DNA of 64,000 nt, taken from assembly GCA_012845835.1 (NCBI GenBank), contig JABAKD010000011.1, positions 11,408,381 to 11,472,380 on the forward strand. The letters run 5' to 3'. Shown here piece after piece: positions 17,046 to 45,551 of this stretch. The notes under the pieces were generated by a model. The model did no database searches and was not told where the DNA came from. It was given only the letters and a program-made list of their open reading frames with translations. The position numbers were made by a program, and so were the translations under genes. This DNA is from Undaria pinnatifida. Lineage: Eukaryota > Sar > Phaeophyceae > Laminariales > Alariaceae. Each line of letters starts with the position of its first letter. Positions within the stretch are counted from its first letter, which is position 1.

Positions 17046-17187
17046 ATGATGATGGTGTTAGAGCCTGACCGTGATCACCGCTACCATGGCCGTGACCGTG
17101 ATGCCTTGCGCTGCACTCAGGATGGCTTCGACCTGGACCTGACGTACGTGACGGGTCGGATTATCGTGCACGGCTTTCCTGCTACTG
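17046..17187 (+). CDS. PTEN: PTEN exon 1 (N-terminal phosphatase start)
   Basis: The frame is open from 17025; three ATGs stand at 17046-17054. It codes for TQDGFDLDLTYVTGRIIVHG and FPAT, matching human QEDGFDLDLTYI...GFPA. It ends ACT G|GTGTAG in phase 1. With the first ATG, 25 residues precede DGFD, against 22 in human PTEN, so the start is plausible. The PIP2-binding NKRRY-type motif is not evident. An acceptor at 17027 (TTAACAG) could mean an extra 5' exon. Confidence 0.8.
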
Positions 17188-20100
17188 GTGTAGGTCAGTT
17201 AACACTATTATAGGTGTAGGTCAGTGATAGCAAGTCAGTGAGTCGTGCGGCGCGGGGGCATGGGCAGAAGTGCCAATTCGAGCGGTTTTCGAGTAACATC
17301 AACGGAGTGTCTGACATATCCCCTGCAGCGTGTATTGTAAAACATTCGTGCTATTCTTTTTCATTTTTGTTGATGCTTTATGTAGAAGTACTTGTACTCG
17401 TGCTTAGTGGTGTTCACTGCCTGGCAGCCATGCCGCCTTCTACGCGCGCAGCGCAGCACCAACAGCCGGAGGTCTTGATCGCTATGATCCGACAGTTGGC
17501 GTTGTTGGGAGGGATAGAGGTTGGGGCATCGAAAGATGTGAACATGGTCCCACTGCTTTGTCTTCTTTGCGGTACTGGCCGTACTCGTTTTGTCTCGATG
17601 CTTGCCTTGCGAATTATTTGTACGTCGTGTGCGTAGCGAACATCATGGCAGAGAAACTTGGGTGAGATTATAACACTTTTGGCGATGCAACGACCGCCGG
17701 CCGCTCTTTGCTCAACACGATGCGACCGACCTCGCAAATTGAGCTCTCTAATACTTTTGGGCCTCAATAGAGCTCTAATACCTCTTGTATCTGGTACGCA
17801 CAAGAGCAGCACCGGTACTGTGTCGCATGATCGGCCAGCGGCAAGTGGCGAGGGCGTTATGCAACATGCACAGTTAAAGATGCGTGCTTGGGGGGTTCCT
17901 GCGCGAAACATCAAGAAAAGCCCAAGAGCTCACGAGTCGTGAATCAATTGTAACCATTCTCCGTGCTGTGCCCGATGTTGTCTATTTGCCTCGCTCATGA
18001 TTTTTGGGCATCTTGCACGTGGAATCTTGTCCCAGAACACATATATAGAAACCCTCGGACGGAGGTGCAGAGGCTGTTGGACAAGTATCACGAGAACCGC
18101 TACAAGGTTTACAACTTCGCCAGCGAACCGGGGAGGACGTACCCTGAGCAGCTCTTCCATGGCCGCTGCGAGAGGCAAGTAATTAGCTCAGTATAAGTAG
18201 GGTCTTCGTGCCTTTACGTTCCTCGCGTATAGAACTACCAGGTATAGAACACGAGTGCGATAAAACCCTTCAAACCCTTCGTACTTGGTACCAACTATAA
18301 TCCGCTCTCTGCGACAGGTATTGTTACCGGCCGGTCGCCCCGGTGGCGTATCAGGTTATCCTCGAGCCTGGTATAGATCAGCTTCGTGAGTTCGAGCCCC
18401 ACCGAGTGCATACTCGTACAAAATTCGTTGGGACTTTTTCTTGTGCACAAATTGACTTGCGGAAAGCGCGAGAGCGTGAGTCAGCAACATTCGATGAATA
18501 AACGAGCAGTGGGATTGCTGAACCCTATGCGCGTTAAAAATTGAAGGCAAGAACCGGGGGGAAGAAGGGACGACACCTGTGACCAAGGCTTTTGTCCAGA
18601 AGCTGGAAAGTAAAAGTGTGGGAAAAAAAACACACACACACATACACCAGTACCATGTACAGTAGGGTACCCGGTATAGGAGCACCCATAAGAGCATCCA
18701 TGCTACTAACTGTAAGAGAAAACGGACCTAAGGTCGGTCAAACCCGCTTGTCGCGTCTTGTGACGCCCATTGTGAACCTCTATTATTCCTAATCTGAGAA
18801 GATCGACACGGAGATGATAACGGTAACACTGGCATGTTCCGACGGGCTCTTAAATCGGGTGCCCACTCTACTATTTTATTATCGTATTATTATGCAGGCT
18901 CGGATCACCAGAGATCTTTGTAGCCGGCGTCCCCGCTGATCCAATGGTAAGCCGCGTGACTATTGCGGTCGTAGGTTCTATTCTCACAAAGGACTCTATC
19001 TTACAAATCGACAGGCCGAAAGCGCGCGAGCGTGAGTTGGCGAAAATCGATGCAAACCGACGAGCATAAAAAAAATGGAAATGCTGAACCCCATGCGCAA
19101 ATAATATAAAGGCAAGTACCGGGGGGAGAAGGGAAGACACCTGTGACCACGGTTTGTCCAGAAGGTCGCTGAGGGTCTTACGAGTTCAGGTGGAGAGTAA
19201 AAGTGATGGTCAACACGAAAAAAAAACGTTTTTTTTTTTACTTTTTGTTGTTTGCGGTAGCAATAGAGTGTGCGGTAGACATAATGTGTGAAGTGTGAAG
19301 ATATCCCGCGTCGACCATGCTCGCGACATGCATCATTAGAAAAAAAGTGTCGAATTGTAAAGTTGTAAATTGTAAATTTGACGAATGGCGCACTTGCTAT
19401 CGAGCCTCGGCGCAACATATCGTACAGAGGGGTAGAGGAGAGATGTACTACTCTAGCTCTGCAAAAGCTATCAATCATACATATTACATATATAACGACT
19501 AAAATCACCCTGTTGACCCTGATAGCTACACTGTAGTTGTAAGGGGAGTCGCCGACCTATATCCTTAATGAGGACACATAACCCGTAATACGCGCGATCG
19601 GAGTATCACACACAGCTTGCAAAGATGGGTTCGGACAACATATTCGATCTCACAGCTGGAGTGTATTTTCATTTTTTATAATATATAACATATGTACAGC
19701 AAGTGCATACCATGCACAATATTTTATAAAAATTAAAATACACTCCAGCTGTGAGATCGAATGTGTTGTCCGAACCCATCTTTGCAAGCTGTGTGTGATA
19801 CCCCGATCGCGCGTATTACGGGTTATGTGTCCTCATTAAGGATATAGGTCGGCGACTCCCCTTGCAACTACAGTGTATATAGCAATACTGCACTGAAGGT
19901 TGGGTCGTGGGCGTCGCCGTTGAGAGTATGAGAGTAACGAGAGCAGAATCCTGTGCTTGTGTGCGGTCCGTTATTTCATTATTTCAAGTTTGAAGAGTTT
20001 GCGCGGGAGACCGGCGAAAGTACCCCCACCTAAATTATCGGAAACGGGATGGAGATGGTAACTTTCAGAGTCGAGGTGATACGCCTTGCCGTCTGCTAGA

Positions 20101-23100
20101 GGTATCTCTACTGCTGCTGGCCTTTCTAACTATAGAAATGTTAACATATCCTCTCAATTGAACATGTGTTGAGTGAATGCGCGCCCGATCGTCGCGTCTC
20201 TCCCGAACGCTGCGACAGCAGCGGTATAATAGTTGGCATTGTTCTTTGTTCTGTTTGCCGGTTCAGAGGAGTTCCCGTTTGCCGGTGACGCTTTGACCAC
20301 TGCTGTGGTAAACTTACCCAAATATTTTGGAGTTCCAAGTGGTTTGCCCCACAGCGTGGGTGCAACAGCCGAACAGCAGTAGCAGGCAGTACGTTCGGTA
20401 TGTACCGTAGTTGTAAAATACAGAATTTGCTCTGTCGAACTCGGCAACCGGTTTTTCCACTCGAACGGCAACGATTCCGCCATTACCTTACACCACTGCC
20501 GAAATGTTCTACTCTACATTCCAAGCCGCGTTTCCCCCAAAAAAGGGCGCTGCAGATTTGACCTGTTAATAGCATTAATAACCTTATACTACTTATAATA
20601 CTACCGTACAATATGTGCCGGCAGTTTGTGGGAATATGATACTCGAAGTTTTTGCCTGGACCACGCTGGGCTTTCTTGTTACCATCAGATACTACCGTAA
20701 TTTATTTTGTCTTTGTAGTCATCGCTTTTACTCTCCAGCTCCACCCGTACATATCATGAAGTTTTACCCTCTGCGACCTTCTAGACAAGCGGTGGTCGCA
20801 GGTGTCTTCTCTTCTTCCCCCTGGTACACAGCTATATGCCTTCGTTTTTATGACGCATAAGGTTCAGCATTCCCACTTTTCAGCTTTTTTTTTTTTTTTT
20901 TTTATCCTCCTGGGGATCCGGGTAAAAAAAGCTCAAGCTCCATACACTTTCGTTTGTGTACCAGTTTTCGTTTTTCAGCTTTTCGTGCGTGTCGAGAGAA
21001 TTTTTGCAAACTCACGCTCTCGCGCTTTCTGCCTGTTTTTTTTAACGCAAGAAAAAGTCCCTACGAGAACGATTGTGCACTTGGTGAGACTTGAAACCAC
21101 AACCTTCACGTTAGTAGGGACGGGATTCACCCACTGTTTGCTCCATCGAGGACGCCGACCAGTGTAGGCCTTGGTAAAACCCTCCACCTATCTTTCATGT
21201 TTTTCGTGCTCTTCCCATCTACTATCTCGGCAGTTTCTGTTTCTCTTTTCTCCCTCTCTAGACGTAAGTCAGATGTAGCGTCACTAAGCAGGCCCTTATC
21301 CCCCCTTCCCACTACCGCACGTGCCTTCATGTTCATCGCCAGAAGACTTCAGCCGTTTCTTCCCTCGTCGACTCGCGTCGAATTGCGCCTCTACCCACGC
21401 TGCTAGGCGCCCTCAGCAGTTTTTTGTTTTCGTTTTTGCGAGTAGACTCAATGGTCCTACCACGCTGCTAGGCGCTCACAGCGTTTGTTTGTTTTTTTCG
21501 AGTAGGCTCAATCGTCCGACCCACGCAAGATTCGAACCCCAGAACTAACGAACCAACTCTACTAATAGACCACCGGCGAGACCAGTGTAAATTGTATAAT
21601 TAGCAAAATAGATATACAACCTTCGTATCATATGACTTACCTGGTACTCTACAGTAGCTTACACGCGATAGTGCATACCAGGTAGATCCCAACCTCAAGC
21701 CAGTAACGCGGGAGGTCGGCGATACCGCATTTTTTTTGCCCTTGTAGATCAGAAACTCTGCTGCGCACTGACTGCAGGATCGTACTATTAATACGAGTAA
21801 TACAAGCGCTCCAACAGTATGAATTGTTTTGGTACAACAGTATACTCGTAGGCATCGGCATGGACAAAATAGTTGTGCTGGACGACGATGGATGGAAATA
21901 ACAGGTTAACGTAAAGAGCACACACATATACAATGTTGACTTATATGTGCATGCATTTGCATAGATCCTACCTGGAATAATGTATACCTTAATGTGGACA
22001 CACCTTGTATTACGCGCGATCGGAGTATCACACACAGGTTGCAAAGATGAGTTTCGACAACATACTCGATCTCACAGCTGGAGTGTATTTTCATTTTTAT
22101 AATATATATCCGTATATACCCAGTCGGTAGTCGGTAGTACACCGGGATAGGTTATTACTCTGCTTGTTGCGTTATGTTGACATAATTTCCTGATATTTCT
22201 CCATGTCATTGAATCCCTCTAGGAGTCTACGATGGGGTGTCTTATTGGTTGCTTGCTTTGGTCTGACACGACTTTGGATTGCTGAGATGTCGTGGCGCAC
22301 ATCTATCTGGTACTGGGTATTTTTCATGTTTTTTCACGGTGTGGAACCGAGCCGCGGTGCTGTTTTATTTTCGAAGTCACAGGGTGCGGTTTCTATATAT
22401 TGGGAATGCTACGTTGCAGTCCGGTGCGGTTTTCATTTTTGAATAATCGTGTAATACGGTGCGGTGCCGTGCGGTTTGCAATTTGACATGGTACGGTGCG
22501 GTGCGGCGGGGGTACCGGCCAAAATCGCACCGCACTGTACCTGCACTGTAGCAAATTACTTAGGTTTTTCAGGTCTCGGAGCTTTTTCACAGTTTTGTGG
22601 GAGTCGAACGGTGCGGTCCGGTGCGGATTTTTATCTTCGATAAGTTCTACGGTGTGGTTCGATGCGGTATTGTAAAAAGAGGCAAAGTGGTACGGTGCGG
22701 TGGCGTTCGGTAAGACCTCACCGAACCTCACCGCACCGCACCGTAAGGGAAAAAAAACACCGTGAGAAACGTTGGTATTTTTCGAATTGGATACGAAGTA
22801 AGTACATGATATACCTCTGTTGTAACGCTGTGTTGTGGCAGCACAAATCACGACAATAAAGCACGGGAGTATTATTCAGTCGTATACAAGTACACTGCCT
22901 GCTGCGATGTTTGCTTACGTGGCGTTTTTTTTCTGCTTGAAGGAAGCGCGTGCGCATGCATATGGGACGTAGGCATTGCAAGTTGCAATAACGGAGAAGG
23001 GGTCGGCCGTTTGGGTGTTGGTCTTCGCAGATAGTGTGCAAAACGCCATATTATCTATTGTACCGCAGAACGGCGCGACGCGCAGTACCCCAAAAGAGCA

Positions 23101-29100: not shown

Positions 29101-32100
29101 AGCTGAAGATGGAAAGCACCAACGTGCTATCAGTCGTTTTGCGTCTCGCACTGCGCTTTTTCAATGCTTTTGATTATTTATTATTTTATGTTTTGATCGT
29201 GTGATGGAGTTTTCGTCTCAGAGCCCCTCTCGCCCACGCCATTCAGCCAATAAAGTTATATCTGGTATGTCGATGTCGGGTAACGTGTAGGTAACGCGTA
29301 ACGACGTGTAACGTGTTCCGTCAAAACTGTACGATACCAGACATGACGTTTCGACGTCACGCTCGTACCGATCACCTGGCATCGCTGGTGTGGATGATTG
29401 CATTTGAGTAACGATTCATTGGTGTCTGACGTCGTGTGTTTTTATGTGTAGGATAACAGACACGCGGTGTGTCGATTCGTCGTCGGTTCTAATCGTATGC
29501 ACACGGTGTGTACTTCAGAGTGGTCGTTTCACTTGAGAGTCGTCGTTTCCCTACTTGCCTTATAGTGCCGGTATATGTCGGCCAATACCGGCAATACAAC
29601 GGACACCGGCATTATTGGGTATAATACCGATACTTGGTACTACGATAGTACAACGGGTTCCAGTCGTTTCAAGCGATTTCACCGGTATTACACCGGAAGT
29701 AGGCACTAGTCAACCGGCACTGCAACGGCAATAGGCAATAATCAACCGGCACTATTCCGGAAACAGGCGCTGATCAACCGGCACTATCGGGAGACCCTCA
29801 CTGTATACAAGTGCTATGTATTGTACAAATCTCGGCTCCTTCGAAGATCAGGAAACCCCAACCGTCGAAGCTCGCAAGAACCCTCCCAAACCGAGGGCGG
29901 CTTCGTGGTGGGGCGTATGTCGTGTGATGTGCCGTCTTCCCGACGTCCGATACGGTGCGGTACCCGATGCTGCTGGCACATGCACCCATTCGCCTCATGA
30001 ACATTACGACAGACAGTTATAAAAAGTGTTGTCTCACACATCCCAGGCACCCTGGTATCTATTTATAGCCAAGATGCAGCGGCATTGTATACTAGGGTGT
30101 ATGTATGATACGAGTAACATGTTTTGTGTGGTCGTTTCTGCGTTTCTGGCCGTCTCGCGCCCGCTTACGTACTCCGTTTTGCTGTGATATGTTTGTGGTT
30201 TGCTTGTGCTCGACAACCAACCGGTCCCAGGTTTCCGTTTGCCGACCATACCTGCCCCACCCTGGAGTCCGTGGTGGACTTTTGCGAGAGCGCGAAGGCC
30301 TGGCTAGACATGCATGAGGATAACGTAGTGTCTCTCCACTGCAAGGCGGGCAAGGGAAGAGCGGGGATCATGGCGGCGTGCCTCATGGTCCGCTTGGGGG
30401 AGACTGCCAGCGCGTCGGTCTCGAAGTTTGATGAGGTGAAATGGCTTTTGACATCTTGGCATGCTGGCACAGGTTTCTGTGCGCACGTGAAGAATATATT
30501 GCGCGCCTCGACTGTCTTGTACCTGGTGCAGTGGGATACCCGATTTAACAACGTCCAGAATGAGAGAAAGTGGACTAAAGCGCGATCTGATCGGCGGGTC
30601 ACCCCTTCTGACGCCTATATGATACCCAATCTGAGGTAACAGCGGCACCGATGACAACGGTAACACTGGCCTGTTGTATGGGGCTCTTAACCCATTTGCA
30701 ACTCCTAATATAATATTCCTAGTCCAACTCCAAGTGTTTCGTCCCCATGTCGGGACTACGGTGCTAAAAGGGTTGAGGGTTACATCGGGTTCCCCTTTAT
30801 CATACTACTATTTACAGTAGTTTGGTGAGGCGAAATGGCTTGGGATGGGTTCCCATGCTGACGCCGGTTGCTGTGTGAAGTATGAAGGTTGGATTGCGCT
30901 CCTCTATTCTGCATTTCGTACAGTTCGACGAGGTGATATGGCTTGAAACGTCTTGGCATGCTGGCACGGGTTGCTGTGTGGAATGTGAGGGTTGTAGATT
31001 GCGCGCCTCGCCTGTCTTGGGTTTGGCGTGTGTGCGCGCGCCGACGGTAAGTGCGACGTCGTGGTGTGCATTTGCTGCTGGTCTAGACATGGTGCTGCAC
31101 CCACGTTTGACTTGCCACAGCAGCATAAGCCCCTATAGAACCGCACCTTTGTTTTTGTCGACAAGATACTTGGAATTGGTTTAGGCTTATGTGTGCTGCT
31201 GTATAGACTAAACGATAGCCTCGTTTGGGCTGGTCGGTCGGTGTTGCTTGCGCGGTTAGCCCTGGATGAGCCTCTATTTGATTTTTATTTAGTTTCCAAA
31301 GAACTTTTTTATGTTATACCTGGTATGTAGCTCATAGAAACGCCTGTACATGTAGCTCATAGGAACGCCTGTGTCGCCCTATTTCAACTTACGACATTCC
31401 CCTGGGGGTTTTAAGCCAAGCACATCCCGAAGGGGACGCTTGTAAGAGTTAATACTTTTTTTTTGCTCTTGTCTTATATTATCTGCGCATTCTTCTTTCT
31501 CTTTCTCCCTCCCTCGACGTAACTCAGATCGGGGGTCACTGAGAAGGGCTCTTCTCCCCCTCCGCACTACGGTACGCGCCTTCGTTTTTATCGCCAGAAG
31601 ACCTCAGCTATTTTCTTCCCTCGTCAACTCGCAACGAATTGCGCTTACCCACACTGCTCCGTAGGCTCTCAGCAGTCGTTTTCATTTTATTTTTTATTTT
31701 TGCAGATATACTCAAAACTCCGACCCACGTGGGATTCAAACCCCTGAACAAACTCTAGTAGCAAACGAGTTTAACCACTAGACCACCGGGGCGACCGGCT
31801 AATACTGTGTGAATGCAATATTACGGAAGCAAGGCCCTGTCATTGTCACGAGAGTCGCTCGCACGTTCACCCTGCCGCGGTACGCAAGCAACTTTGAATG
31901 CTCAGGTCGGTGCCACGCCCGTTTGCCCCTAACGCTATTGCTGAGCAGACGAGGGTCTCTGACTTGAAAGGACTGACCGTGGTCAATCAACGGAAGTGGC
32001 CGTTTTTATACGAGAGACTCGTCAAGGAGGTGAGGCTCGCTTTAGTGACTGAATTTGGTATTACCAGGCTTTTGAAGATTCATACAGTGGTAACGATGTT

Positions 32101-35100: not shown

Positions 35101-38100
35101 GAACAGCATCGGATTGGTACCAGGCAAGGACCCAGACCTGACGGCGCCAGCTTCGAGAGTGGCGTGTGTTCGCGAGATTTCGATTCATCTCCAACCCAAG
35201 ACTAAGGGAGGCAAGAGGAACGACAAAATCCTGGTACGAATGGACGTTAGAGAGAGTTTTTATGTATACCTGGTACCTGCTATGTAATACATGTCCTGTA
35301 GAGGTATCGTTCACTTTAGTCTCCGGTTCAACTCGCAGGTGTTGTTAAAGCTGAGCGGCACTCTGAACGAGCTGGCTGCGATGAAAGTTGTCGTCTACCC
35401 CGTTCTCCCCTGTCGCTTGCTTTTTCTTTTAGACACAGTAGAGTATTCCAACACCTCGTCAGCTTTGGTCGATTTTTGCTTGTTCATGCTCTCGCGCTTC
35501 CCATTGCTGCTACATATTTCAAATCACCCGTTCGTCGCTACGAGTACTCGCGAGGGACAGTATGACAACGAGTTATCGCGAAGAACAGTATGGCAGGTCA
35601 CCAGAGCAATGTGGGTTTGTGTGTGGTGTATTGCTGGGTACGAAATGCCTGGTGTCCGGTACTCTGTAAACGGGACAGGAATGTTGCGCTTTCGTTTCGT
35701 AATGTTTATTTTGACCCCCATCGCTCAACACTTGCTGTGGAAAGTTATCCTGGGTACCGTTTCACGGGCTTGAAATAAATCCCTATTTAACGCTGCCCGA
35801 TCTCCCCTCGCTCTTCCGTCGTCGGCGTGTCTGCCCCAATGGGCGCACGTATGTGCATGTGCAGCCGAGTCTATCCTGCGCTGTCTTCCAGCAAGAGCCT
35901 ACGGGCAAAACTTTGGTCCACCGGGCTAAGATGGTGCTTTCGGAGCCGGAAGATGGTGACTCGGGATCGGTTTATGCGGCGGCTTTGCCTCGCAGCGCTG
36001 TGGTACAGGGCACGTTCCAGGTGACCACGCATAGCCGGAACGTCCCGGTGATGGTCACGGTGCTGAATCCCTCTGTCGCTTTTCTTGATTGCCTCGTCTC
36101 TGATGCACCCTGGTGTGACGCATTCGGCATGAGGTGGTACTGCGGGCGATCTAAATATGAAGATAAATCCTCAGTTAGTTTAAGTCGGCGGCTAAATGCT
36201 ATGCTTTAATGTTACGCACGGACTTGGATGCAGAGTATGTCAGTTGCGCTCCCATTTTGAGGGGAAATGCTCGAGTGGGCACCCAAGTACCGACATTGAT
36301 AGCATCTGTTGGGATCCGCGGACTTGCCGTGTAGCGGAAGGTGTAAGGTGTAAACAATGAGACGGTGATGCGGTGATGCCCTATGGGTACCTCGTAGCGC
36401 GCTGGGATATGGGTGGGGTGCGTCGAATACAGGAGTTCATTGGCGGGTCGCGCATACACCATACCTTTGCGGCACCGGCGCATGTTGTTCTTGTTGCATG
36501 AACCCATCACCATTATCTAGTTCGTGGTCACTAGACGGGCTCCAATTACGCTGGAGTGGAAGAAACACCTCGGGAAAAACTAGTGTACGCGTGCTTGACG
36601 AAGTTTCTTTGGTCGGCTTCTCCCTGCTGGAGACGCTATGTATGATACTGGTACGATGTACGATACCATGGATGATGTGATTCTCGTACCATGTATTATA
36701 CGATGCGATGTATAATACCCTGTGTGATACCACATGTGATGCCATGAAGGAGACCATGTACGGCACCATGTATGATACCGTGCATGATGTGATACAGGTG
36801 CTCATCGCTTCGGCTGTAGGGGCGGCGGCCACCCAGAAGCACGTGCTCGATCTCTGGTGGACCACCACGTTCCTCGCACCAGAGGGTAAGACAGGGCCAG
36901 TGCTAGTTTCACTCATGCACAGGCTTCGGTGAAGCAAGGCCTATGCTGTGTTAGACGTTGGTGCAACAGGACCTGTGGCAATTACAGGCGGTGGTAGGAC
37001 AGGGCCTTTGATATTGCCGACGTTGTTATGACAGGACCTGTGCTATTTGTACCAGGTAGGCGATGGTAAAGCATGGCCTGCGCTATTTACAGGCATTGAC
37101 TCTCGCAAGCAATGAAAAGCTGCGCTGGCCGCATTTAGGGTGTTTTTTTTTTACAATTTCACGACCAAACTATAGGTTTAGAAGGCAGCCCGATTGTGAC
37201 GGCATCCAGTGTCCAGTCTAGTCAGTCGTGGGGCCGCAGGGATCCCAAATTGTTCATTGTGTTCTGAAAGCCCGTTAGGTCGCGAGAGAGCGGTATTTTT
37301 GTTATGCGGGCCATTGGAATTGCTTTACCCTTATTAGAGCTGCACCGACGTTTTGAGGGCCACAATATTTGGAGTTTGTGTGGGATATTTCTTGCCGTTC
37401 TAAAGGTTTAATAGCGTCTCCGTTTGCGCGTAATGCACGCTCTTTTTTCAGCGTGGTGCGTTGCATCATGGGTGTTCGCCCGGTGCGCGCACGCACATGC
37501 GTATCGACTCGATTCCTGCTGTATCCTTCCGCGCTGTTTACATCCGCGTGGTTGTGTATCCACCAATCAATGGTGACCAATGTAGACAAAGCATAGTAAA
37601 CTGTGTGCAGAAGGATTATCATGGGCTGACCGTTTTCGTGAAATGGTGCTGCTGACTCTGGTACTATGACGCAGGGGGGTCACCGACGGACATATCCTTC
37701 ACGAGGTCATACACCCTGCAGGACGCGTGATCGAAGTATGTAATACTGCCAGCTTGCAAAGATGGGTTTCGAAGAAACGCTTGATCTCGCAGCTAAGGCA
37801 GCTTTTTAGTCTTTACTCTTGATACCTGGTGTGAAACGTATGCAAATTGCAAATATGAGATTCAACGGAATTATCAGTCTCACAGCTGAGGTATGGTGAT
37901 ATACTTCGAGGTGTGCTGCCTAACAAAAAACGCGCTTTACATACGATATGATATGATATGATATGATGCAGGCGGCGACCACGCGTTCGGGCTAACGGAT
38001 ATGGACGTATTTTCCATGAAGCTGGCGACGCGACTGCAGGAAGCCGGCGCGCGCGTCGTCCTCCGCCACACGCACCCCCACGCGGAGAGCCCCCGACGCC

Positions 38101-41100
38101 GCTCTGCGTTGAAACGCCTTCCAGCCGGAAGCGAAACCACGGGTCCGGAGGAGGGGGGAGGGGCAGCGGCGGGGGAGGATTCTGCGCAAGGCGAAGAAAC
38201 GTCGGAGTCGTCGCAAGTTTTGCCAACGGCAGCAGCAGCAGCAGGAGCAGCACCAACACCCGACGGTAAGGCGAGCGGAGAGCCACGGCAAGATCCTTCA
38301 ACCGCCCAGGGCGCGGCAGAGAAGAACGACAACGCTACAACTACCGGTAAGGATGCCGGCGAGGGGGCCCGTGACCAGAAGGGGCCAGACGGCGGGGGGG
38401 TATCTACCGCTAAGGGAGGGTCCCAGATCGACAGTGCCGGGGCGAAGACGGACATCACCACGGCAAATGGCAGCGACGTCACGACGGGCGAGAAGTCGGC
38501 AAGAACCGCTCCCGTAATGAACAAGCAAAAACCCTCCATTAGCGGCCCCTCCCCAGCTTTCCCGGGCCCCTCCCCGGCGGGGCTAGCCTCTCCGGTGTGG
38601 ACGTTCGAGGGGCGCACGCCCTCAGTCAGGGATGACCCTGCGGGGAGAGCGATTGAGGACTCGAGGTGGACAAGGACCAAGATGTGGAACAGTAACCCTG
38701 GGGTGTCTTCCGGCGGCGCGTCTACTCCGACGGCCGCCGCGTCCCTGAAGCCGGCGGCCCCGGCGGCGGACAGAGGTACGGGTTTAAGGGCGAAGAGGCG
38801 GACGGCGCAGCGGCAGCGGTCCAGGTCGGACTCGATCGGGTCTAGCCAGTCGGGGATGCATTCTGCGTTGTCAGGCGGATCAGGGCCCGTGCGCGCGGGG
38901 AGCACTTGGAGTGCGGTGTATGGAGGCGATAGCGGCGGGGGTGAGAGCGGGGACAAGTCTGCGTCAGGGGAAGGGGAAAGGCAAGGGCAGGGTAGGCAAG
39001 GGAGGAAAGGTTTTCCGTTCCACCAGCACCACCGCGAGACCGACGACTCAGACTCGGATGACCAGCTGGCGGTCAGGGCGTCGGCGTTCGGGCGGCAGAG
39101 TACGACCAGCGGTGGCGGCGGCGTTGGCAGCGGGGGAGGAGGGCAAACAACGGAGGCGCAGTTTGCCCCGCATGGACCGCCGACCGGTACATCATCGACC
39201 CAGGGCGAGCAGTGGGTGATGGAAATGGAGATGTCGTTTGCTCAAGAGCGGAGCGGTTGGGAAGAGTGAGTGAAGTCTGGTGCTTTGGTGGTTTAGTGCT
39301 CGTGTGTGCGGTGGCCGACGTGGTGGCAGCACTATTGAGGCGGCGACTGTTTGCAGTATAGGTGTAGATGAGGGCGTTTTTTTGTGTGTGTCGTGACGAT
39401 AACTTTGCGAACGTGTACCTCCTGGAGGTGGTGATTGATGTGCATGTTTTTCGCACCCTCCAGACGGAACATAATTTGTTGTGGATGGGCGGCAGAGCCA
39501 GCGCGGCTCTGTGTACGCGCGCCCGATAAGTGATGAAATGCATCGTTACATCTCGCGATCGCACGCGTAGGTGGCCGATGGTGGCGGCACAACGTTGTCG
39601 CACGGTACCACCCATTTTTTATGGTACCTCCGTGTGCACCTCCGCGTTTCTGTCTGATTGCCGCCTATTGTGCGCTTGTGGTTTGCCCGTGCAGGCACCG
39701 CCACTGTCTGGAGACGGAGCTGGATTGGGCCTTGGCCGCCCGCGCCCGGGCGGAAGCGAGGAGCGAGGAGGTAAGGTGGAGACCTATTAACCCGTTTAGA
39801 GCTCTGTGCGCATTTTAGGGAACGCGATTACTGCAATTTTATGCGGGATAATGTTGGGAATAGAAAAAAGGGCTAAAAGGCGATGTTCGACATTCCCTTG
39901 TGGCGTTCGCAGGTGTTTTATTGCATACGTAGTGACTGGCCGTCATGGAGATCATGACGTAGAATTCGGGAGGTATATACACGAAAGCTTGTGTACGTTG
40001 ATTGTGGTTGAGGTGGTGGTGGTGTCGGGAATGTACGGGTGCGATGTTAGTTAACTCCGAGCGACGTGGCTCTCGGGGCCAAATACTCTAGAGGTGATAC
40101 CGCAACACCGGTATGTCACAAATCCAACCCACATGTGTCCCAGATTTACATGACTTCTGAGTCGTGCTACGATAACCACCAGCAGGCTATGGTTGGCCAC
40201 TCTTCATAGGTGCTGGCCTTTATGGCAACTTGGTGCACACGTAGAGGCGGGGGCTCCGTACGGAACCACGCGCGCCTGCCTACCCCAAGCTTAGTAGCCC
40301 GCTGAGCGCTCGCGACAGAGGAGACCTTGATCCACACCCGCTGTACTGTCGCAGCTCGCGACAGAAGAACCCCAACTTGCGGAGCGGGTGCAGCTGAGGC
40401 CTGCATCCGACGCTGAGGCCTGCATCCGACGCTGAGGCCTGCATCCGACGCTGAGGCCTGCATCCGACGCTGAGGCCTGCATCCGACGCTGAGGCCTGCA
40501 TCCGACGCTGAGGCCTGCATCCGACGCTGAGGCCTGCATCCGACGCTGAGGCCTGCATCCGACGCTGAGGCCTGCATCCGACGGGGGGGGTGCTCTCTTT
40601 CTCTCTCACCTCTCCCCCACAAGAAACCGGCTTGTTCAGATCGAGCGTAAAGTGCAGATTATGTTCGTTGCTCGACTTTCCCACCATAGAAGAGCGAAAC
40701 ACCCGTGCTTCGATGGAGGTGCTCTTTTTTTTTTTCGAATACTACCCCTCAATTTGGGAGCTCAAGACCTCTCCGAAAAACTGATTGGGATGAAAATAAA
40801 ACTTCTACCGGATGAAAAGTCCCATGGCCTAGGTGACCAAATGGAATCATGAAAAAAATTGTGTATTTCCGACAATTTTGGGTTAAGGAGTGTCTTGAGT
40901 CATTCAGAAATCATTTTGACACGAAAAGTGCTACCTCTATCGTAACACTGGTCGAAATCGAATCTGACATGTTTGTCTTTGTTCTCAAGGTTATCGTGCT
41001 GTTCATAGTCCCGCTTCCGAACAGGACATGACCGTGTTCAAGCACCCCCCCCCCATGGTCTTACAGATTACGGCCATGCATGGTAATGATTACCCCCCCC

Positions 41101-44100
41101 CCTCCCCCCAACCCCCCCGCTCGTTTTGCCCGCTCGTTTTGTTGGTCGCTCTCGATGTGGTCATGACGTGACGTCTTTAGGACAGCGCAAGGGTGGAGGT
41201 TCTGGAGAACAGGCTCTCGGCGTGGCGCAGTGAGGTGAGTGCTTTGTTTGTTTGTTTGTTTGTTTTGTTTTTTTTTCAGCACACTTTCACTTTCCAGCTT
41301 CTGGACAAGCCGTGGTCACAGGTGTCATCCCTTCTCCTCCCCGGTTCTTGCCTTCAATTTTTATCGCGCATAGGGTTCAGCAATCCCACTGCTCGTCGAT
41401 TGTACATCGAATGTTGCTAACTCACGCTCTCGCGCTTTCCGCAAGTCAATTTGTCCACAAGAAAAAGTCCCAACGAATTTATACGAGTATGCACTCGGCG
41501 GGGCTCGAACTCACGAAACTGACCTATACCAGGCTCGAGGATAACCTGATACGCCACCGGGGCGACCGGCTATATTGTTTGGAACCGACGAGATAAATCG
41601 CTGTGAGACCTTTCTTTGCCTCGGGCCCGTGGTAACTTCGAGGATGCTATACATACCTCTTTACCGCTAGCATATTCGTGCATTTTACGAGTAGTATCGA
41701 TCAGGCCTGTCGCGGTGCGATGCGAAACGTGTGCTCGATTTTTTTGTGGTAGACGCGAAGATCGAGTACAGATGTGAGAGTACGTGACGCGACCTTGAGT
41801 TGGAGTATGGATGGGCCGCAGGATGGTTAGCGTGGAATTAAGGGCCCCAGCACTACCCTACTGCGCAGGTCGCGATCGCGTCGCTCCTCGAGGGTCGACT
41901 CACCGGCAGGCTCCACAGCTACAGTCTTCGTCGGTATTTTCCTCTTAACCATCGAAAAAGTCTTGCTTGCTTGCGTTCCTGCCTGTCCGCCTGCCTGCCT
42001 GCCTGCTTCTCTGCCTGCCTGCCGTGCAGCCGTGCTTGCCGTGCTTGCGGCATTTTAGAGTATCTGACACCATGGTAAAAGGAGCATGCTTTGCACTTGT
42101 CACCTATCTATGCCCACCCCCGCTCTCCTTGCTTCTGTCCCCATCTCGTTTGATTTTCGGCTTGGTTGTTGTCTTGTTATTAGTACTCGATGATTGAGCG
42201 CGACGTAAAGCAGGCGGTCAAGCTTCTGGAGATGAGCCTGTCTGGTCTCATGTCGGCGGAGAGCGCCCTGAAAAGGTGGAAGGCGCACATCCCACAGAAG
42301 GTCGGTCGATCTCAGGTTGCTTATTCCTCGTGTCCTGGCGTGATGATATTTTTGTGTATTTTTTACCAGAATAACAATGTTTTACCGGGTATGTTTTCAA
42401 GCGGTCATGTTTAAGATGTCAACCTTTTAAAGACACGGTTGTAGCATACGCTAGCATACTGTAGCTCTCGCTATTGATAGGAACTCGCGCTGGTGGATGT
42501 GTGCACCGATCGTCAACGGTGAGCGTTGGTGGGAAGAAGGAAAGGCTCCTCGTAAATCCTGTGACGCCCTGGGCACTGTTGACGACATGAACGCCGTGCC
42601 CAATTTCCCCCCCCCACTGGTGTACTACCATACGTGTGTCTACGTATTATACGATTACAGCCGTACTCTGATATATATTTGGTATCATACCAATTCGGGT
42701 AAAACAATTCTACACTACGTTTGGTATATTTGTAGGGCTGTGTATCGGTAGCATTTAACGATACTATATTATAAAAATTAAAATACACTCCAGCTGTGAG
42801 ATCGAAGATTTCGTCGAAACTCATCTTTGCAAGCTGTGTGTGATACTCCGATCGCGCGCATTACGAGTTGTGTGTCCTCATTAAGGATATAGGTCGGCGA
42901 CTCCCCTTACAGCTACAGTGTAGCTATCAGGGTCAACAGGATGATTTTAGTCAGTCTGTGCGCGGAAACTATAAAACCCGTTTCTGAGGGGGACAAAATC
43001 TGACAGCTGTGAAGGGAAAGGGGGGGCCTGGTTTTGATCAAAAGCGAGCGGGTTTGGAGGGGGGCGGGGGGGGGGGGGGGGGGGGGGAAGGGGCAATTTG
43101 TGCATGTAAGCTATAAATCCTTTCGAGGGGATAAATCTGACGGTTTTGGCACCAGTATATTATTGGGGGCGGGGGGGGGGGGGGGCAGCTCGACATGTGC
43201 CTGGAAACTATACATTATTGCGAGGGGATAAATGTGACATTTTTGGAAATAATACATCAGTTTATCGTGTATATCCTGGGGGTAAGTCGTACAATCAGTG
43301 AGTAAAGAGAGATATAGTAGATCGGCGCAGCCGATGTATCGATACATTTTCGACATATCGGCTTAGAACTTTCGCTTTATTTGCCATCAAAATTGGTCAC
43401 AAATGCGCCATCGAAATTGGTCTTGTTCAGCCAACAAAACTGAGCGAAAACTTCTACAAACGTGTTTTCATTTCATTGTTTTGTTGGGCATTTTCATGCA
43501 GAAAACTAAATGGAAACCAGCACTGGCCAGCACATGTACTACAACGTACAACGTGCCAAATGTTCTTAAAACGATGTAGATGACGAAAAAAAACTAACCT
43601 CATAGCCACACAGTAGCCGGTAAGTGGCAACCAACATGCAAGTACTTGAACGGTACCCTACTAATTGTTCTGCCCAGCAAAGTCAACCTACTTCAACAAC
43701 AGTAAAGCAAGTAGCTCCAAAGTTAGGGCAAAGAGACACACCTACAGGCATCGTCGTTTTGCCGATTGTATGTACTCGTAGCACGTGCTACTTTTGCGCT
43801 TATTTTTCAACAGTACGCTGCGTACCTTAAAAATCCGTGTTGACACCCTCATTTTTTACCAGCAGACGTCCTTCACTTTTCTGCCACGCTCTGCCCACCA
43901 TCCACGGTAGCTGGTAGGGGTGCACAGCATCATTAGTCCCTGAGGTCCTCACATGAGCTCAATACCTCACCCGGAAAAATGATTTCGAAGGTATTCGTTC
44001 GCAAAAACCGACCAAGCTTCTATGCCTTAGTCCTAAAAAAATGTGTACTCGTGAAATTACTGGACTAATGACTAACCGGTAGTTCCTAACATGAGGAGCT

Positions 44101-45551
44101 CAATCGCCCTGGGACTTTTTGTCCCAATCATACATACACTGCAACTCCCTACCGTGGGACGAACACACGAACATACCTTACGGAGGTACACGGTACACGG
44201 TACACCGTACACCGTACACGGTGATTTCTTACAACTGACGTGCGTGTGCCTGTTGTCTGCCACTGCTGCTGTTGCAGGACGTTGTGTGTGATGTAGCTGG
44301 TTGAGACGAGGTGTACATCCCCTATTTTCCTGCTTTTATGTATGCCTTCCTACTCTGTAAAAAACCCATACGCTAAAATATCGGCAAACATATCGGCTCG
44401 ACTTCCCGATATAATATATATATAGGATCGTCCGATATATCGAAAAACATCGGTACCGATACACAGCCGTATGTATTTGAGTTTTCGGACTGGATATGCA
44501 CCAGCCATGAAAAATCGGGCGCGCGAGCCTGGAAATGGCACCCTATTTTTTGCCGCCGTCGGAAATTAGAAATTCGCTTCGCTCGTAGTAGATTACCACC
44601 TTTTTGAGGGACATACTACACGGGAGTACGTAGTGTTGATTTTTTTTTCATGTTGTAAAGGGGTTAAATAATACTCGGAGTACTTTCCGCGATCCCAGGG
44701 GGGGTTTGGTAGATTCGATAGCACGCAACACATGGCATTGCAAAAGTTGACGCGGGTGTGTGCATCACCGCGCGCTGTGGTTTCATCCCCGCGTTCATGA
44801 CAAAATCCGGCCTCAAGAACCATAGACTACTACTTGATTAAAGTATTTCAAGGACGTCAGCCGTGAGTTCGACGAATTTCGGGTCAATACTCACCTTGGC
44901 AAGCTGCGTAATTGGTACTTGTAATATACTAAGTTGGTGAGTTTTTTCTTAATGGGAGGGGTCATGATATTTTGTTAAAAAAAACTATTTGCGTGGCGTG
45001 ATATGTGTTTATGGGATACACAGATTGTTGTGTGATTCGCTGTGCTTGCTACTGCAGCAGTATTATGAAAAATGTATATAAAAAATGTATTACGTCGGCT
45101 GTCGGGGTGGTTGAGACCGCCATTCGCCGTTCAGTGTTTACTAGCGGCATGGTCGGCTCCTATCTGTGAGAGCCGGCGTTGGTGCGTACGTACTTACGCA
45201 CGCCTCTAGTACCGTTGTCGTTTGTGCTGATTTCTCTTTCGCTAGTTGTTTCGTGTTTCGCCGCATGCGGTGCCGTCCGGTGGGCTGTCATGTTAATATG
45301 CGACCTGTAGTTGTGTCGCGCTTGGACGACTGACGATGGCCGTGTCTCGTTGTGTTGCATTGTCCACTTATCGTGGTGTTGCATTGACCACTTCTCGTGG
45401 TGTTGCATTGCGTTGACCACTTCTCGTTGTGTTGCATTGACCACGTCCCTTGGTGTTGCGCTGACCAACTTGACAGGCCTACGAAGACATCATGGCCTGC
45501 TTGACCAAGGGGGAAATGGCGCACAGGCCCGCGGCTTCTGAGCAGGAATGA
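17046..45551 (+). CDS. PTEN: PTEN-family phosphoinositide 3-phosphatase with long disordered and coiled-coil tail (12+ exons)
   Basis: PTEN dephosphorylates PtdIns(3,4,5)P3 at the inner plasma membrane and opposes PI3K signalling. Proposed exons: 17046-17187, 18036-18174, 30231-30435, 31949-32119, 35102-35233, 35865-36020, 36798-36885, 37972-39265, 39695-39770, 41181-41234, 42184-42300, 45477-45551. They sum to 2649 bases (882 residues), and every junction is in phase. The first ~380 residues align along human PTEN: GFDLDLTY start, YRN...YKVYNF, PFADH general-acid loop, [10 protein letters not shown] P-loop, then C2 strands including LWWTTTFLAPEG. The catalytic Cys (30340) and Arg are kept; Thr after the Arg is Ala. 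About 390 disordered residues and coiled-coil exons follow. Usual PTEN is ~400 residues, so the tail is unusual. The N-terminal start (ATGATGATG) and the 3' end are the least certain parts. Confidence 0.85.
17188..18035 (+). other. PTEN intron 1
   Basis: GTGTAG...TTGTCCCAG, 848 bp. It contains overlapping open frames on both strands (+ 17238-17636, - 17414-17914) with no recognised domain; one may be a mobile-element remnant. Confidence 0.7.
18036..18174 (+). CDS. PTEN: PTEN exon 2
   Basis: Supplies AA to complete Glu, then HIYRNPRTEVQRLLDKYHEN, RYKVYNFASE and HGRCER. This matches human [29 protein letters not shown] and FNCRVAQ. Ends GAG AG| in phase 2 before GCAAGT. Confidence 0.9.
18330..18640 (+). 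mobile_element. tRNA-derived SINE type 1 in PTEN intron 2
   Basis: Head GGCCGGTCGCCCCGGTGGCG with a B-box-like GAGTTCGAGCCCC, body and GGGACGACACCTGTGACCAA; ends in an A8 run and a CA microsatellite. Confidence 0.85.
18905..19235 (+). mobile_element. SINE with a different tRNA-like head
   Basis: The head reads GCCGGCGTCCCCGCTGATCC, then CAATGGTAAGCCG and GTAGGTTCTATTCTC. The body and tail match type 1 (GACAGGCCGAAAGCGCGCGA; GACACCTGTGACCACGGTTT) and end in an A run. The head was probably swapped. Confidence 0.7.
19514..19882. repeat. Inverted pair of repeat A (palindrome, ~170-bp arms)
   Basis: Copy 19514-19690 (+) and copy 19712-19882 (-) face each other across ~25 bp. They share variants absent from the other copies (GGGTTCGGACAACA), so one arm was copied from the other. 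A transcript, including PTEN pre-mRNA, would fold into a long hairpin. Confidence 0.85.
19890..20720. other. Intron sequence, nothing recognised
   Basis: Overlapping minus-strand frames 20141-20365 and 20154-20483 have no recognisable domain. Confidence 0.4.
20735..21150 (-). mobile_element. SINE type 1, long variant
   Basis: On the minus strand: head around 21075-21145, body CGAGAGCGTGAGTTTGCAAA, tail complement at 20735-20830. A T20 run and extra ~80 bp lie inside (20880-20990). Confidence 0.65.
21170..21590 (-). mobile_element. tRNA-derived SINE type 2
   Basis: Read on the minus strand, the head carries an A-box-like TGGTCTATTAGTAG and a B-box GGTTCGAATCTTG. The body holds a ~55-bp duplicated piece (ACGCTGCTAGGCGC twice at 21398 and 21460). 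The tail half matches 31440-31600 (TCTCCCTCTCTAGACGTAA on +). Confidence 0.8.
21982..22108 (+). repeat. Repeat A, copy 5 (5'-truncated)
   Basis: Starts at TACCTTAATGTGGACACACC and ends TTTTTATAATATA; micro-ORF start ATG at 22047, MSFDNILDLTAGVYFHFYN. Confidence 0.85.
22330..22745. repeat. GGTGCGGTGC-rich degenerate minisatellite
   Basis: The motif CGGTGCGGT or its complement recurs about a dozen times, and the two orientations face each other around 22500-22530 and 22690-22742. Confidence 0.7.
23395..24311 (+). mobile_element. Composite C-tract element ending in repeat A
   Basis: Long C runs (up to ~25) separate units carrying TTTATCCCCTCGAAA and TTTATAG(T/C)TT(C/A)C(A/G). These lead into CTGACTAAAATCATCCTG and repeat A at 24126. 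The same order, inverted, is seen at 42768-43310 and 58857-60190; a shorter + copy is at 55310-55695. Blocks such as CGCCTAGACCTAGCACCAC (23622) recur complemented at 59450. No protein is coded. Confidence 0.8.
24312..25477. mobile_element. Mariner-like non-autonomous TIR element flanked by TA
   Basis: Left end TA|GAGTGTTTGCGAAAATACG (24314) and right end ...CGCAAACACTC|TA (25475) form ~38-bp inverted repeats; TA flanks both ends. Inside are mixed short frames (24603-25224) but no DDE motif that I can see, and a perfect hairpin at 24818-24859. It sits directly against the end of repeat A. Confidence 0.75.
24818..24859. repeat. Perfect 18-bp inverted repeat (hairpin)
   Basis: CGGTTTAGGGCAGAGGAG, a 6-base loop (TTTCCG), then its exact complement. 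Confidence 0.9.
26163..26284 (-). repeat. Repeat A, copy 7, cut by a hAT-like element
   Basis: On the minus strand it reads ...RSDETFDLTAAVYFYFYN in the micro-ORF frame but has lost the usual ATG. The repeat stops abruptly at CCTCATATGAT where the next element begins. Two partial ends of the same repeat lie at 25970-25995 and ~26138-26160. Confidence 0.75.
26284..27419. mobile_element. hAT-like non-autonomous element
   Basis: TIRs TAGGGCTGGGCACTG... (26285) and ...TCAGTGCCCAGCCCTA (27419). Flanks CATATGAT and CATATGCT match at 7 of 8 positions, as in an 8-bp hAT target duplication. The interior has a ~75-bp tandem duplication (AAGGAAGGAACGCGTGAA at 26869 and 26949; GGTGGCGGAGATCTT twice) and an A-rich stretch. 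No transposase is recognisable. Confidence 0.7.
27439..28664. mobile_element. pogo/Tc1-like TIR element, degenerate
   Basis: Left end CAGTGGGTACCCCCGTTAAG-ACCACC. The right end GGATGGTCTTGAAGGGGGCA-CCCACCTCACTG is its imperfect complement. Open pieces at 27705-28013 and 28417-28641 (KVLDIFQQMFPKTSLETFWS) may be transposase remnants; I cannot place them. A solo end of the same kind (CAGTGGTACCCACTTCGTGA) lies near 11866. No clear target duplication. Confidence 0.5.
28649..28737. repeat. 44-bp tandem duplication
   Basis: GGCACC(C/T)ACCTCACTGCAC followed by GTAT(C)(A/G)CGTGTATTGTTGTA occurs twice, directly at the right end of the TIR element. Confidence 0.8.
28790..29015. repeat. Degenerate repeats of the palindrome CACGAATCGTG
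   Basis: TTTGTCACGAATCGTGATTT-like units recur at about eight points in both orientations, mixed with A and T runs. Confidence 0.65.
29570..29812. repeat. AACCGGCACT repeats
   Basis: A ~35-40-bp unit (TCAACCGGCACTATTCCGGAAACAGGC-like) occurs about four times and ends GGGAGACCCTCACTG. A related end (AACCGGCACTACGGGGAGACC) lies at 50412-50432, suggesting the terminus of a mobile element. Confidence 0.6.
30231..30435 (+). CDS. PTEN: PTEN exon 3: catalytic P-loop
   Basis: G completes Arg, then [58 protein letters not shown] and SKFDE|. This matches human [40 protein letters not shown]. Asp of the PFADH loop, the nucleophilic Cys (codon 30340-30342), both P-loop lysines and Arg (30358-30360) are present. 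The residue after Arg is Ala (GCG) instead of Thr. Donor GAG|GTGAAA, phase 0. Confidence 0.95.
30421..31020. repeat. Three copies of a ~95-bp unit that begins in PTEN exon 3
   Basis: TTTGATGAGGTGAAATGGCT...TCTTGGCATGCTGGCACAGG starts at the end of exon 3 (30427) and recurs at ~30824 and ~30925, with GATTGCGCGCCTCG-type ends. The exon end and splice donor were thus duplicated within the intron, as in the gene at 1-2017. Confidence 0.75.
31440..31800 (-). mobile_element. tRNA-derived SINE type 2
   Basis: Minus-strand head CCGGTCGCCCCGGTGGTCTA with A-box TGGTCTAGTGG and B-box GGTTTGAATCCC. Body and tail match 21170-21590. It ends ~95 bp before the region of PTEN exon 4. Confidence 0.85.
31949..32119 (+). 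CDS. PTEN: PTEN exon 4: end of phosphatase domain
   Basis: After GCTGAGCAG it reads TRVSDLKGLTVVNQRKWPFL and YERLVKEVRLALVTEFGITR, LLKIHTVVTMF. This matches human [20 protein letters not shown], then the FETIPMF linker to C2. I end it at GTG|GTAAAT (32119) because the linker is included. An earlier donor, GAG|GTGAGG after 32029, also keeps phase and would drop the linker. Confidence 0.75.
32335..33600. repeat. Intron 4 repeats: dispersed pair and 114-bp tandem
   Basis: A ~80-bp block (TACAAGG(C)TTCCC(C)TTCGGGATG to GGCGAAAAGGGAGACACCGG) occurs at ~32344-32421 and 33519-33596. A 114-bp unit (GAACAGCATGCCCAAAAGAA) is in tandem at 33161 and 33275. The unit length is a multiple of three, so the 226-codon minus-strand frame over it (32789-33469) stays open by duplication. 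Confidence 0.7.
34200..34630. other. GC-rich intron stretch with open frames on both strands
   Basis: Frames 34204-34581 and 34314-34610 (+) and 34280-34633 (-) overlap. There is no recognisable domain and phases do not fit the PTEN chain. Possibly a mobile-element remnant. Confidence 0.35.
35102..35233 (+). CDS. PTEN: PTEN exon 5: first C2 strands
   Basis: GGTGTGCAG| then NSIGLVPGKDPDLTAPASRV and ACVREISIHLQPKTKGGKRN, DKIL|GTACGA. It aligns with human [24 protein letters not shown]. Phase 0 at both ends. A possible extra in-phase piece from 35339 (VLLKLSGTLNELAAMK) lacks a good donor and is left out. Confidence 0.8.
35865..36020 (+). CDS. PTEN: PTEN exon 6: C2 with insertion
   Basis: GCATGTGCAG| to CCAG|GTGACC, 52 codons, phase 0 both ends. 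Its end, YAAALPRSAVVQGTFQ, joined to VLIASA of the next exon, aligns with human [20 protein letters not shown]. The ~35 residues before it have no counterpart in human PTEN. Confidence 0.7.
36640..36797. repeat. ATG/GATACC microsatellite against a splice acceptor
   Basis: ACCATGTATGATACC-like units (about 15-20 bp, GATGTGATAC, GTATGATACC, CCATGTA) fill 36640-36790 and end in the acceptor GTGATACAG of exon 7. Confidence 0.75.
36798..36885 (+). CDS. PTEN: PTEN exon 7: C2 core
   Basis: VLIASAVGAAATQKHVLDLW and WTTTFLAPE G|GTAAGA. Human counterpart [27 protein letters not shown]. Ends in phase 1. Confidence 0.88.
37670..37900 (+). repeat. Degenerate repeat A, two pieces
   Basis: Conserved GCTTGCAAAGATGGGTTTCG (37751) opens MGFEETLDLAAKAAF-stop. 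A second piece with GCAAATTGCAAATATGAG opens MRFNGIISLTAEVW-stop. Both keep the frame of the micro-ORF. Confidence 0.65.
37941..37971. repeat. (GATAT)n microsatellite as acceptor tract of PTEN exon 8
   Basis: ACGATATGATATGATATGAT... runs straight into ATGATGCAG|GC; there is no pyrimidine tract. Confidence 0.8.
37972..39265 (+). CDS. PTEN: PTEN exon 8: last C2 strand and ~390-residue disordered tail
   Basis: GC completes the Gly left by exon 7, giving APEGGDHAFGLTDMDVFSMK, then ARVVLRHTHP for the last C2 strand. Next comes Ala/Gly/Ser/Thr/Pro-rich sequence with acidic (ETDDSDSDDQ) and basic (LRAKRRTAQRQRSRSDS) patches and runs of Ala and Gly. The end, EMEMSFAQERSGWEE, looks like the start of a coiled coil. 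Donor GAAGA|GTGAGT, phase 2. The 339-codon minus-strand frame over it is a shadow. Known PTENs have a ~50-residue acidic tail here. Confidence 0.85.
39695..39770 (+). CDS. PTEN: PTEN-gene exon 9 (coiled coil)
   Basis: CCCGTGCAG|G completes Glu, then HRHCLETELDWALAARARAE and ARSEE|GTAAGG. Heptad-like Leu/Ala spacing. Phase 2 in, 0 out. Confidence 0.8.
40392..40583. repeat. 19-bp minisatellite, ten copies
   Basis: CGCTGAGGCCTGCATCCGA repeated ten times without visible variation, in intron 9. 19 is not a multiple of three, so the same repeat reads in three frames on the minus strand. Confidence 0.95.
41181..41234 (+). CDS. PTEN: PTEN-gene exon 10 (coiled coil)
   Basis: GTCTTTAG|DSARVEVLENRLSAWRSE|GTGAGT, 18 codons, phase 0 both ends. 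Confidence 0.8.
41275..41575 (-). mobile_element. tRNA-derived SINE type 1 in intron 10
   Basis: Reverse complement of the elements at 10449 and 18330 along the whole length, including head (GCCGGTCGCCCCGGTGGCGT on -) and GACACCTGTGACCACGGCTT. The T-rich stretch before 41278 is its A tail. Confidence 0.88.
42184..42300 (+). CDS. PTEN: PTEN-gene exon 11 (coiled coil)
   Basis: TTGTTATTAG|YSMIERDVKQAVKLLEMSLS and GLMSAESALKRWKAHIPQK|GTCGGT. Phase 0 both ends. A later in-phase donor (CAG|GTTGCT, 42315) would add VGRSQ. Confidence 0.78.
42768..43310 (-). mobile_element. C-tract composite element, inverted copy
   Basis: Near-identical reverse complement of ~23765-24311, including repeat A (micro-ORF ATG on - near 42824, MSFDEIFDLTAGVYFNFYN), spacers and G/C runs of different length. 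It lies inside the hAT-like element. Confidence 0.9.
44186..44222. repeat. Palindromic GTACACCG/CGGTGTAC cluster
   Basis: CGGTACACGGTACACCGTAC and its continuation are built from one 8-bp unit in both orientations. Confidence 0.8.
44845..44935 (-). repeat. Repeat B copy, inverted
   Basis: GGACGTCAGCCGTGAGTTCG to GGCAAGCTGCG is the complement of the repeat B core at 14298-14385. Confidence 0.75.
45345..45476. repeat. 24-29-bp tandem repeat against a splice acceptor
   Basis: CGTGGTGTTGCATTGACCAC-TTCT-like units occur five times and end in GACCAACTTGACAG, the acceptor of exon 12. Confidence 0.85.
45477..45551 (+). CDS. PTEN: PTEN-gene exon 12, possible end (frame break at 45545)
   Basis: Phase 0: AYEDIMACLTKGEMAHRPAA-SEQE, then TGA at 45549-45551. 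In the +1 frame the sequence continues smoothly after SEQ as NERRLVGRANEKMADAAARQ-FSRR to ~45630. One extra G in CAGGAATG would explain this. Either the protein ends here or a base is in error. Confidence 0.5.
   Translation, partial: AYEDIMACLTKGEMAHRPAASEQE

Follow-up and report, generated by a model that had tools for sequence, protein, structure and literature searches.

A PTEN-like gene of Undaria pinnatifida with a very long low-complexity tail and a conserved, putatively helical C terminus

PTEN is usually viewed as a core enzyme with a short regulatory tail, and in the human protein about 50 residues follow the C2 domain. The PRL phosphatases (PTP4A) carry a C-terminal CAAX box, and in tensin and in auxilin/GAK a PTEN-like core is joined to another module. 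The joining of such cores to further modules is also already known from formins, both plant class II and stramenopile ones; formin PTEN domains with damaged catalytic sites are described in the available part of PMC2386819, those of stramenopile formins having probably lost their activity. For human PTEN itself, the part of PMC4700475 at hand describes a phosphorylated disordered tail that touches the C2 and the phosphatase domain and reduces membrane binding, so that a regulatory tail has a precedent.

Here we analyze a locus of Undaria pinnatifida that looks, from its sequence, like one real gene for a PTEN relative with a very long tail. Among the titles and abstract beginnings looked at, we found no description of this gene, nor of a PTEN-type enzyme combining a long linker with an end module of this kind.

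Results

The analyzed window is a stretch of 64,000 nucleotides (C13:11408381-11472380), and the genome searched comprises 511 Mb in 68 contigs. On the forward strand of the window, 12 exons spanning 17046-45551 join into a protein of 854 residues. As a sequence-only reading of the locus had proposed, the phase is kept at all 11 junctions (out-phases 1, 2, 0, 0, 0, 0, 1, 2, 0, 0, 0), including the one at which exon 7 is left in phase 1 and the two missing bases come from exon 8. Exon 1 (17046..17193) contains the start codon, an N-terminal basic stretch and the motif DGFDLDLTYV, and leaves in phase 1; exon 2 (18036..18174) is entered in phase 1, left in phase 2 and followed by a GC donor (gcaagt). 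The remaining 10 of the 11 introns are GT-AG. Intron 2 (18175-30230) with its donor GCAAGT extends over 12 kb (12,056 nt), and the matching exon of the paralog described below stops at a GT.

We scored the coding potential of the downstream exons with a codon-position model for which only exons 1-7 served as training set, and compared the scores with those of length-matched intron windows, restricted to stop-free windows for exons 9-12. The score of exon 8 was equalled by none of 5000 intron windows, and those of exons 9 and 11 by none of 1932 and 1140 stop-free windows, respectively; exons 10 and 12 were equalled by 0.12% of 2533 and 0.62% of 1932 stop-free windows. The frame used was the best of the three in all five exons (8-12). 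Exon 8, 1,294 nt long, has 0 stops in this frame vs. 9 and 13 in the other forward frames, but its openness alone is no proof, as an antisense frame, too, is interrupted by no more than 1 stop. The corresponding antisense open frame of 434 residues (37937-39241, minus strand) is probably a by-product of GC-rich codons. Between exon 8 and exon 12, 2604 AG..GT candidates with a length of 40-250 nt were ranked by score, and exon 9 came 1st, exon 10 25th and exon 11 41st; the latter two lose points because they have TAG acceptors and the model was trained on seven acceptors, all of them CAG. A start of exon 11 at a second acceptor, 42214, has a higher score and was dropped: the paralogous exon 11 is also 117 nt long and matches from IE.DVKQ onward.

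Residues 18-191 match the phosphatase domain of human PTEN (E 2.8e-40 against 1d5r), and the best 13 of the 18 sequences matched in the PDB are PTEN, TPTE2 or VSP, PRL-1 following at 3.3e-4. Exon 3 (30231..30435) encodes a WPD-type loop, FPFADH (30232-30249), and the P-loop HCKAGKGRAG (30337-30366; human HCKAGKGRTG), which has the form HCxxGxxR with Lys at 125 and 128. Exon 4 (31949..32029) encodes the TI loop KGLTVVNQR with the equivalents of Thr167 and Gln171; D92 and H93 of the WPD loop and T167 and Q171 of the TI loop are all retained. The available text of PMC8956741 names eight active-site positions of PTEN (92, 93, 124-126, 129, 130 and 171); the protein equals the human one at all eight, and likewise at Lys128 and Thr167. 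In the N-terminal basic lipid-binding motif, R11 and R15 are retained and K13 and R14 are not.

One active-site change had gone unnoticed in the sequence-only reading: Thr131, the Ser/Thr that follows the P-loop arginine, is Ala. The same Ala is found in the paralog, making a sequencing error unlikely. In PRL phosphatases, a P-loop Ala keeps the phosphocysteine intermediate for >1 hour, and its replacement by Ser accelerates hydrolysis more than 15-fold, as far as the accessible portion of PMC12192612 reports; from the shared Ala, a slow enzyme would be predicted. Excerpts of PMC10625621 further indicate that human PTEN can be silenced by mutations at or near R130/T131. Judged by its active site, the protein is likely a PIP3 phosphatase, with the change of Thr131 to Ala as a caveat. 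We label it "PTEN-like" rather than PTEN in the strict sense, because Thr131 is absent and the assignment of the C2 domain is uncertain.

The putative C2 region begins, in strongly divergent form, in exon 5 (35102..35233) and continues through exon 6 (35865..36020) and exon 7 (36798..36885, with VLDLWWTTTFL) to a last strand encoded by exon 8. As a correction to the sequence-only reading, Pfam PTEN_C2 matches neither this protein nor its paralog (the human PTEN control matches at 3.3e-39). In a single-sequence hhalign comparison with an alignment of the PTEN, TPTE2, TPTE and VSP C2 domains, the region scored at shuffle level. Its global pairwise scores against PTEN, TPTE2, TPTE and VSP were reached by 0.3%, 0.2%, 6.3% and 34% of 1000 shuffles, respectively, and its local scores by 17.8%, 3.8%, 22.5% and 44%; for the local scores of the paralogous region, the corresponding figures were 0.1%, 0.2%, 7.1% and 46%. 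A two-sequence profile of both regions scored 24.0 against the same C2 alignment, colinear over 107 columns, with a maximum of 14.6 among 60 column-shuffled controls (E 0.0034, probability only 9.5%). This domain drifts fast, given that human PTEN C2 itself finds VSP by phmmer only at E 0.15, and we take the region after the phosphatase domain to be a C2 of PTEN type that has diverged strongly. The positions of CBR3 lysines 263, 266, 267 and 269 read A, T, Q and H in an alignment that is uncertain there, and the basic CBR3 lysines thus appear to be absent. The only Pfam PTEN_C2 match of the genome search, weighed as a possible third gene, lies at C24:8439129-8439272 (minus strand), in a 62-residue open frame (MFRAAFHTGYV...LRLTKQQLDGA); by eye, similar stretches recur nearby in the list of open frames, and the frame is perhaps a gene fragment trapped in a repeat.

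After the last C2 strand, exon 8 (37972..39265, out-phase 2) continues from 38079 into a Gly/Ala/Ser-rich tail of ~395 low-complexity residues (~353-747), all within this exon. Residues 353-740 comprise 16.5% Gly, 13.4% Ala and 12.9% Ser; in residues 353-735, Gly, Pro, Ser and Gln make up 42%, and bulky hydrophobic residues or Cys 11%, compared with 35% in the phosphatase domain. Inspection by eye identified a basic run with an RxRxxS motif and an acidic run, TDDSDSDDQ; the two may resemble the phospho-tail of human PTEN.

A whole-genome search with the last 107 residues returned, besides the gene's own exons, one further place only, at C13:10253083-10253229 on the minus strand (45% identity over 49 residues, E 8.9e-5). 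From 80 kb around this match, we built a PTEN-like paralog (C13:10274416-10252574, minus strand), located 1.2 Mb from the window gene on the same contig and consisting of part of exon 1 and exons 2-9, 11 and 12. Exons 1-4, 6-8 and 11 are supported by protein similarity in tblastn. Exons 5, 9 and 12 were sought under a phase constraint and the other boundaries were set by eye, for which reason the agreement in phase follows in part from the method; independent support comes from the protein similarity and the equal lengths of exons 3, 4, 7 and 11 in the two genes (205, 81, 88 and 117 nt). Between the two proteins, identity amounts to 52% over 349 residues in the core (E 1e-108) and to 35% over 106 residues at the end (E 5e-14). 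The paralogous exon 9, also of 76 nt, is supported by its length, phase and splice sites only: it ranks 4th of 56 candidates by score, its similarity is that of shuffles (0.45), and another frame is better as coding. Exon 10 was not found in the 80-kb region. Exon 12 (AYNDVMCCL...) was the best of 215 candidates, scoring 38 vs. 22, and its coding score is below zero, yet the best of three frames.

As values of the pair, in which the constrained gene is not identifiable, dN/dS is 0.15 for the phosphatase domain, 0.23 for exon 11 (21 of 39 codons identical) and 0.30 for C2. The dS of about 1.7-2 is near synonymous saturation and points to an old duplication and a constrained end module. The tail of the paralog is, by contrast, unrelated in sequence and, at ~810 residues, twice as long, with a TPARxG-type repeat and poly-Gln runs; when the low-complexity bodies were aligned (368 and 810 residues as cut), 59% of 200 shuffles reached the score, which suggests that the linker sequence is free to change. 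What appears to be conserved is thus a core, a long low-complexity linker and a helical end. The order proposed by the sequence-only reading, with the last C2 strand and the tail in one exon and C-terminal exons (coiled-coil ones in that reading) after it, is supported above all by the paralog, which repeats this order with a conserved end module. This repetition of the core-linker-end layout makes an accident of splice-site picking unlikely as the origin of the exon chain, and it also suggests that the tail probably has a function in the protein instead of being a prediction error.

The active site of the paralog is altered, its P-loop reading HCKKEKGRAS and the changes comprising H93D, A126K, G127E, T131A, G132S and Q171H, and the paralog is possibly a pseudophosphatase. 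The colorectal-cancer hotspot list in the accessible part of PMC8956741 includes each of these six positions. This membership is weak evidence: departures from human PTEN occur at 10 of the 31 listed hotspots in the window protein, too, and at 17 of the 30 covered in the paralog.

The C-terminal end is encoded by exon 9 (39695..39770; residues 748-773, Ala/Arg/Glu-rich and possibly helical), exon 10 (41181..41234; residues 774-791, a heptad repeat), exon 11 (42184..42300; residues 792-830, a conserved and apparently helical module with heptads until about residue 817) and exon 12 (45477..45551; residues 831-854 and the stop codon TGA). With a home-made heptad score, for which a GCN4 control was reached by 0 of 2000 shuffles, the best 28-residue stretch is 775-802, extending over exons 10 and 11 and reached by 0.35% of 2000 shuffles. 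A single heptad register spans about residues 755-817, although its part before 769 scores low. Of the "coiled-coil exons" named in the sequence-only reading, exons 10 and 11 therefore fit the description and exon 9 does so weakly; the description does not suit exon 12, whose AYxDxMxCL is nevertheless conserved, with a divergent end after it. In the paralog, the best heptads fall at the corresponding place but are borderline, being reached by 5.7% of shuffles. Between the two genes, ~48 residues of exons 11-12 are conserved, among them DVKQAV.LLE, SAE.AL.RW and P.KAY.D.M.CL. A Pfam scan of all 854 residues gave no match for the end module; in the PDB one search found none and another gave F-box only protein 22 as its best at E 0.62-0.63, and in NCBIfam the best E-values, 0.032 and 0.053, were far below the cut-offs and nothing was credible.

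The window contains several other elements. Introns 2 and 11 share an element that is oppositely oriented in the two (23787-24317 and 42763-43281), 97-99% complementary, with arms of 117 and 423 nt and poly-C/poly-G runs. A repeat family with ACACTCCAGCTGTGAGATCGAA is present at 19497-19884, 21998-22107, 24128-24319, 26165-26247 and 42763-42952; one member forms an inverted repeat whose 157-nt arms are separated by 51 nt (19520-19676 / 19728-19884) and is MITE-like by its look. In intron 9, at 40393-40583, a 19-nt unit, GCTGAGGCCTGCATCCGAC, occurs in about ten identical copies. Farther downstream, long open frames at 54529-57745 (plus strand), Ala/Ser/Thr-rich and partly glutamine-rich, are perhaps exons of the next gene.

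Discussion

By computation, the window yields one gene model with a near-complete PTEN active site, a paralog of the same layout and an end module under constraint. Our preferred reading, to which we give an even chance, is of one gene whose PTEN-type phosphatase-C2 core sits on a disordered linker of ~395 residues with a conserved C-terminal helical module, and whose product would be a slow, tail-recruited 3-phosphatase. Such an enzyme would remove the 3-phosphate from PIP3 or PI(3,4)P2 at membranes. Since the C2 seems to be without the basic CBR3 residues of human PTEN, membrane recruitment could be set by the tail, and the location of the enzyme would be decided by the C-terminal helix instead of the C2. 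The partner of the end helix would be a second copy of itself, the paralog or a scaffold. With Ala in place of Thr131, hydrolysis of the phosphocysteine would be slow, giving slow turnover, and a slow protein may additionally act by holding its substrate or partner.

The gene model itself would be wrong at its 3' end if exons 9-12 belonged to another transcript, or if the protein normally stopped, through a retained intron 8, at the in-frame TGA that lies just within this intron (39267-39269). The frame of exon 11, which by eye continues into intron 11, and the low ranks of exons 10 and 11 (25th and 41st of 2604) would fit such a reading; we nevertheless consider it very improbable, as exons 9-12 themselves carry coding signal and the paralog has exons 8, 11 and 12 in the identical order with the conserved module. 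The catalytic part of the preferred reading faces a stronger competitor, in which both proteins are phosphatase-like scaffolds that chiefly bind phosphoinositide or protein, the tail holding the complex and catalysis being marginal. Ala131 is common to both genes, further active-site positions are changed in the paralog, and PTEN can be silenced by mutations at or near R130/T131, according to the part of PMC10625621 available. The differences of the paralog at H93, A126, G127, T131, G132 and Q171 all fall on hotspots in the excerpted PMC8956741, an argument weakened by the 10 of 31 hotspots at which the window protein differs too. That the window protein keeps all eight listed active-site residues, that the two phosphatase domains show constraint (dN/dS 0.15, a pair value in which the constrained gene is not identifiable) and that PRLs with the same Ala still hydrolyze, if slowly (PMC12192612, in the portion available), lead us to regard a mere scaffold as unlikely.

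The end module may form a dimer or a hetero-oligomer with the paralog, or it may dock to a partner. Oligomerization or scaffold anchoring through the coiled-coil end, as the sequence-only reading had suggested, is something we infer at most, because the heptads of the paralog are borderline and the conserved residues would suit a docking site, too. A monomeric docking peptide or a helical hairpin for some partner, in place of an oligomerizing coiled coil, would agree with these borderline heptads and with the conservation of AYxDxMxCL in exon 12, which lies after a Pro and outside any heptad; it agrees less well with the single register of about 755-817 in the window protein, albeit one with weak scores before 769, and we judge it rather unlikely. 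A bolder reading, which we hold to be doubtful and less probable than either the scaffold or the docking peptide, is that phosphatase and pseudophosphatase form a PTEN pair that hetero-oligomerizes through the shared helical module, the catalytic partner being PRL-like with a long-lived phosphocysteine and the pair acting as a slow or switchable phosphoinositide sensor.

Across two long-diverged genes, the body of the tail is free to vary while ~48 residues near the end are held, which offers an independent lineage in which to test what PTEN tails do. The natural change of Thr131 to Ala would likewise test to what extent a PTEN can function without the P-loop hydroxyl.

Searches of viral contigs with the tail and an end-module alignment, and searches with the core, among others in prokaryote genome contigs, found no relatives, which says little, as these collections contain no eukaryote genomes. 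Compared with human PTEN (1d5r, 7jvx), the phosphatase domain is colinear from DGFDLDLTY to the TI loop at 41% identity, the WPD, P-loop and TI-loop residues are kept, and a putative C2-like region comes directly after it. Unlike in human PTEN, Thr131 is Ala, the C2 is strongly divergent, the CBR3 lysines are apparently gone, K13/R14 are not retained and about 500 residues extend past the C2. With the PRL (PTP4A) phosphatases, the protein shares the Ala that follows the P-loop arginine; in PRLs, this Ala slows the hydrolysis of phosphocysteine according to the available part of PMC12192612. The protein is nevertheless far nearer to PTEN in sequence (E 2.8e-40 vs. 3.3e-4 for PRL-1), has a C2-like region and a tail, and ends in ASEQE with no prenylation box. 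It is set apart from class II formins, tensin and auxilin by the absence of any FH2, SH2, PTB or J domain found by Pfam in the 854 residues. The degenerate active site of the paralog is similar to those of the formins with damaged PTEN domains, as portrayed in the portion of PMC2386819 at hand. The paralog shares with the window gene the exon order, the phases, the core, the low-complexity tail in exon 8 and exons 11-12.
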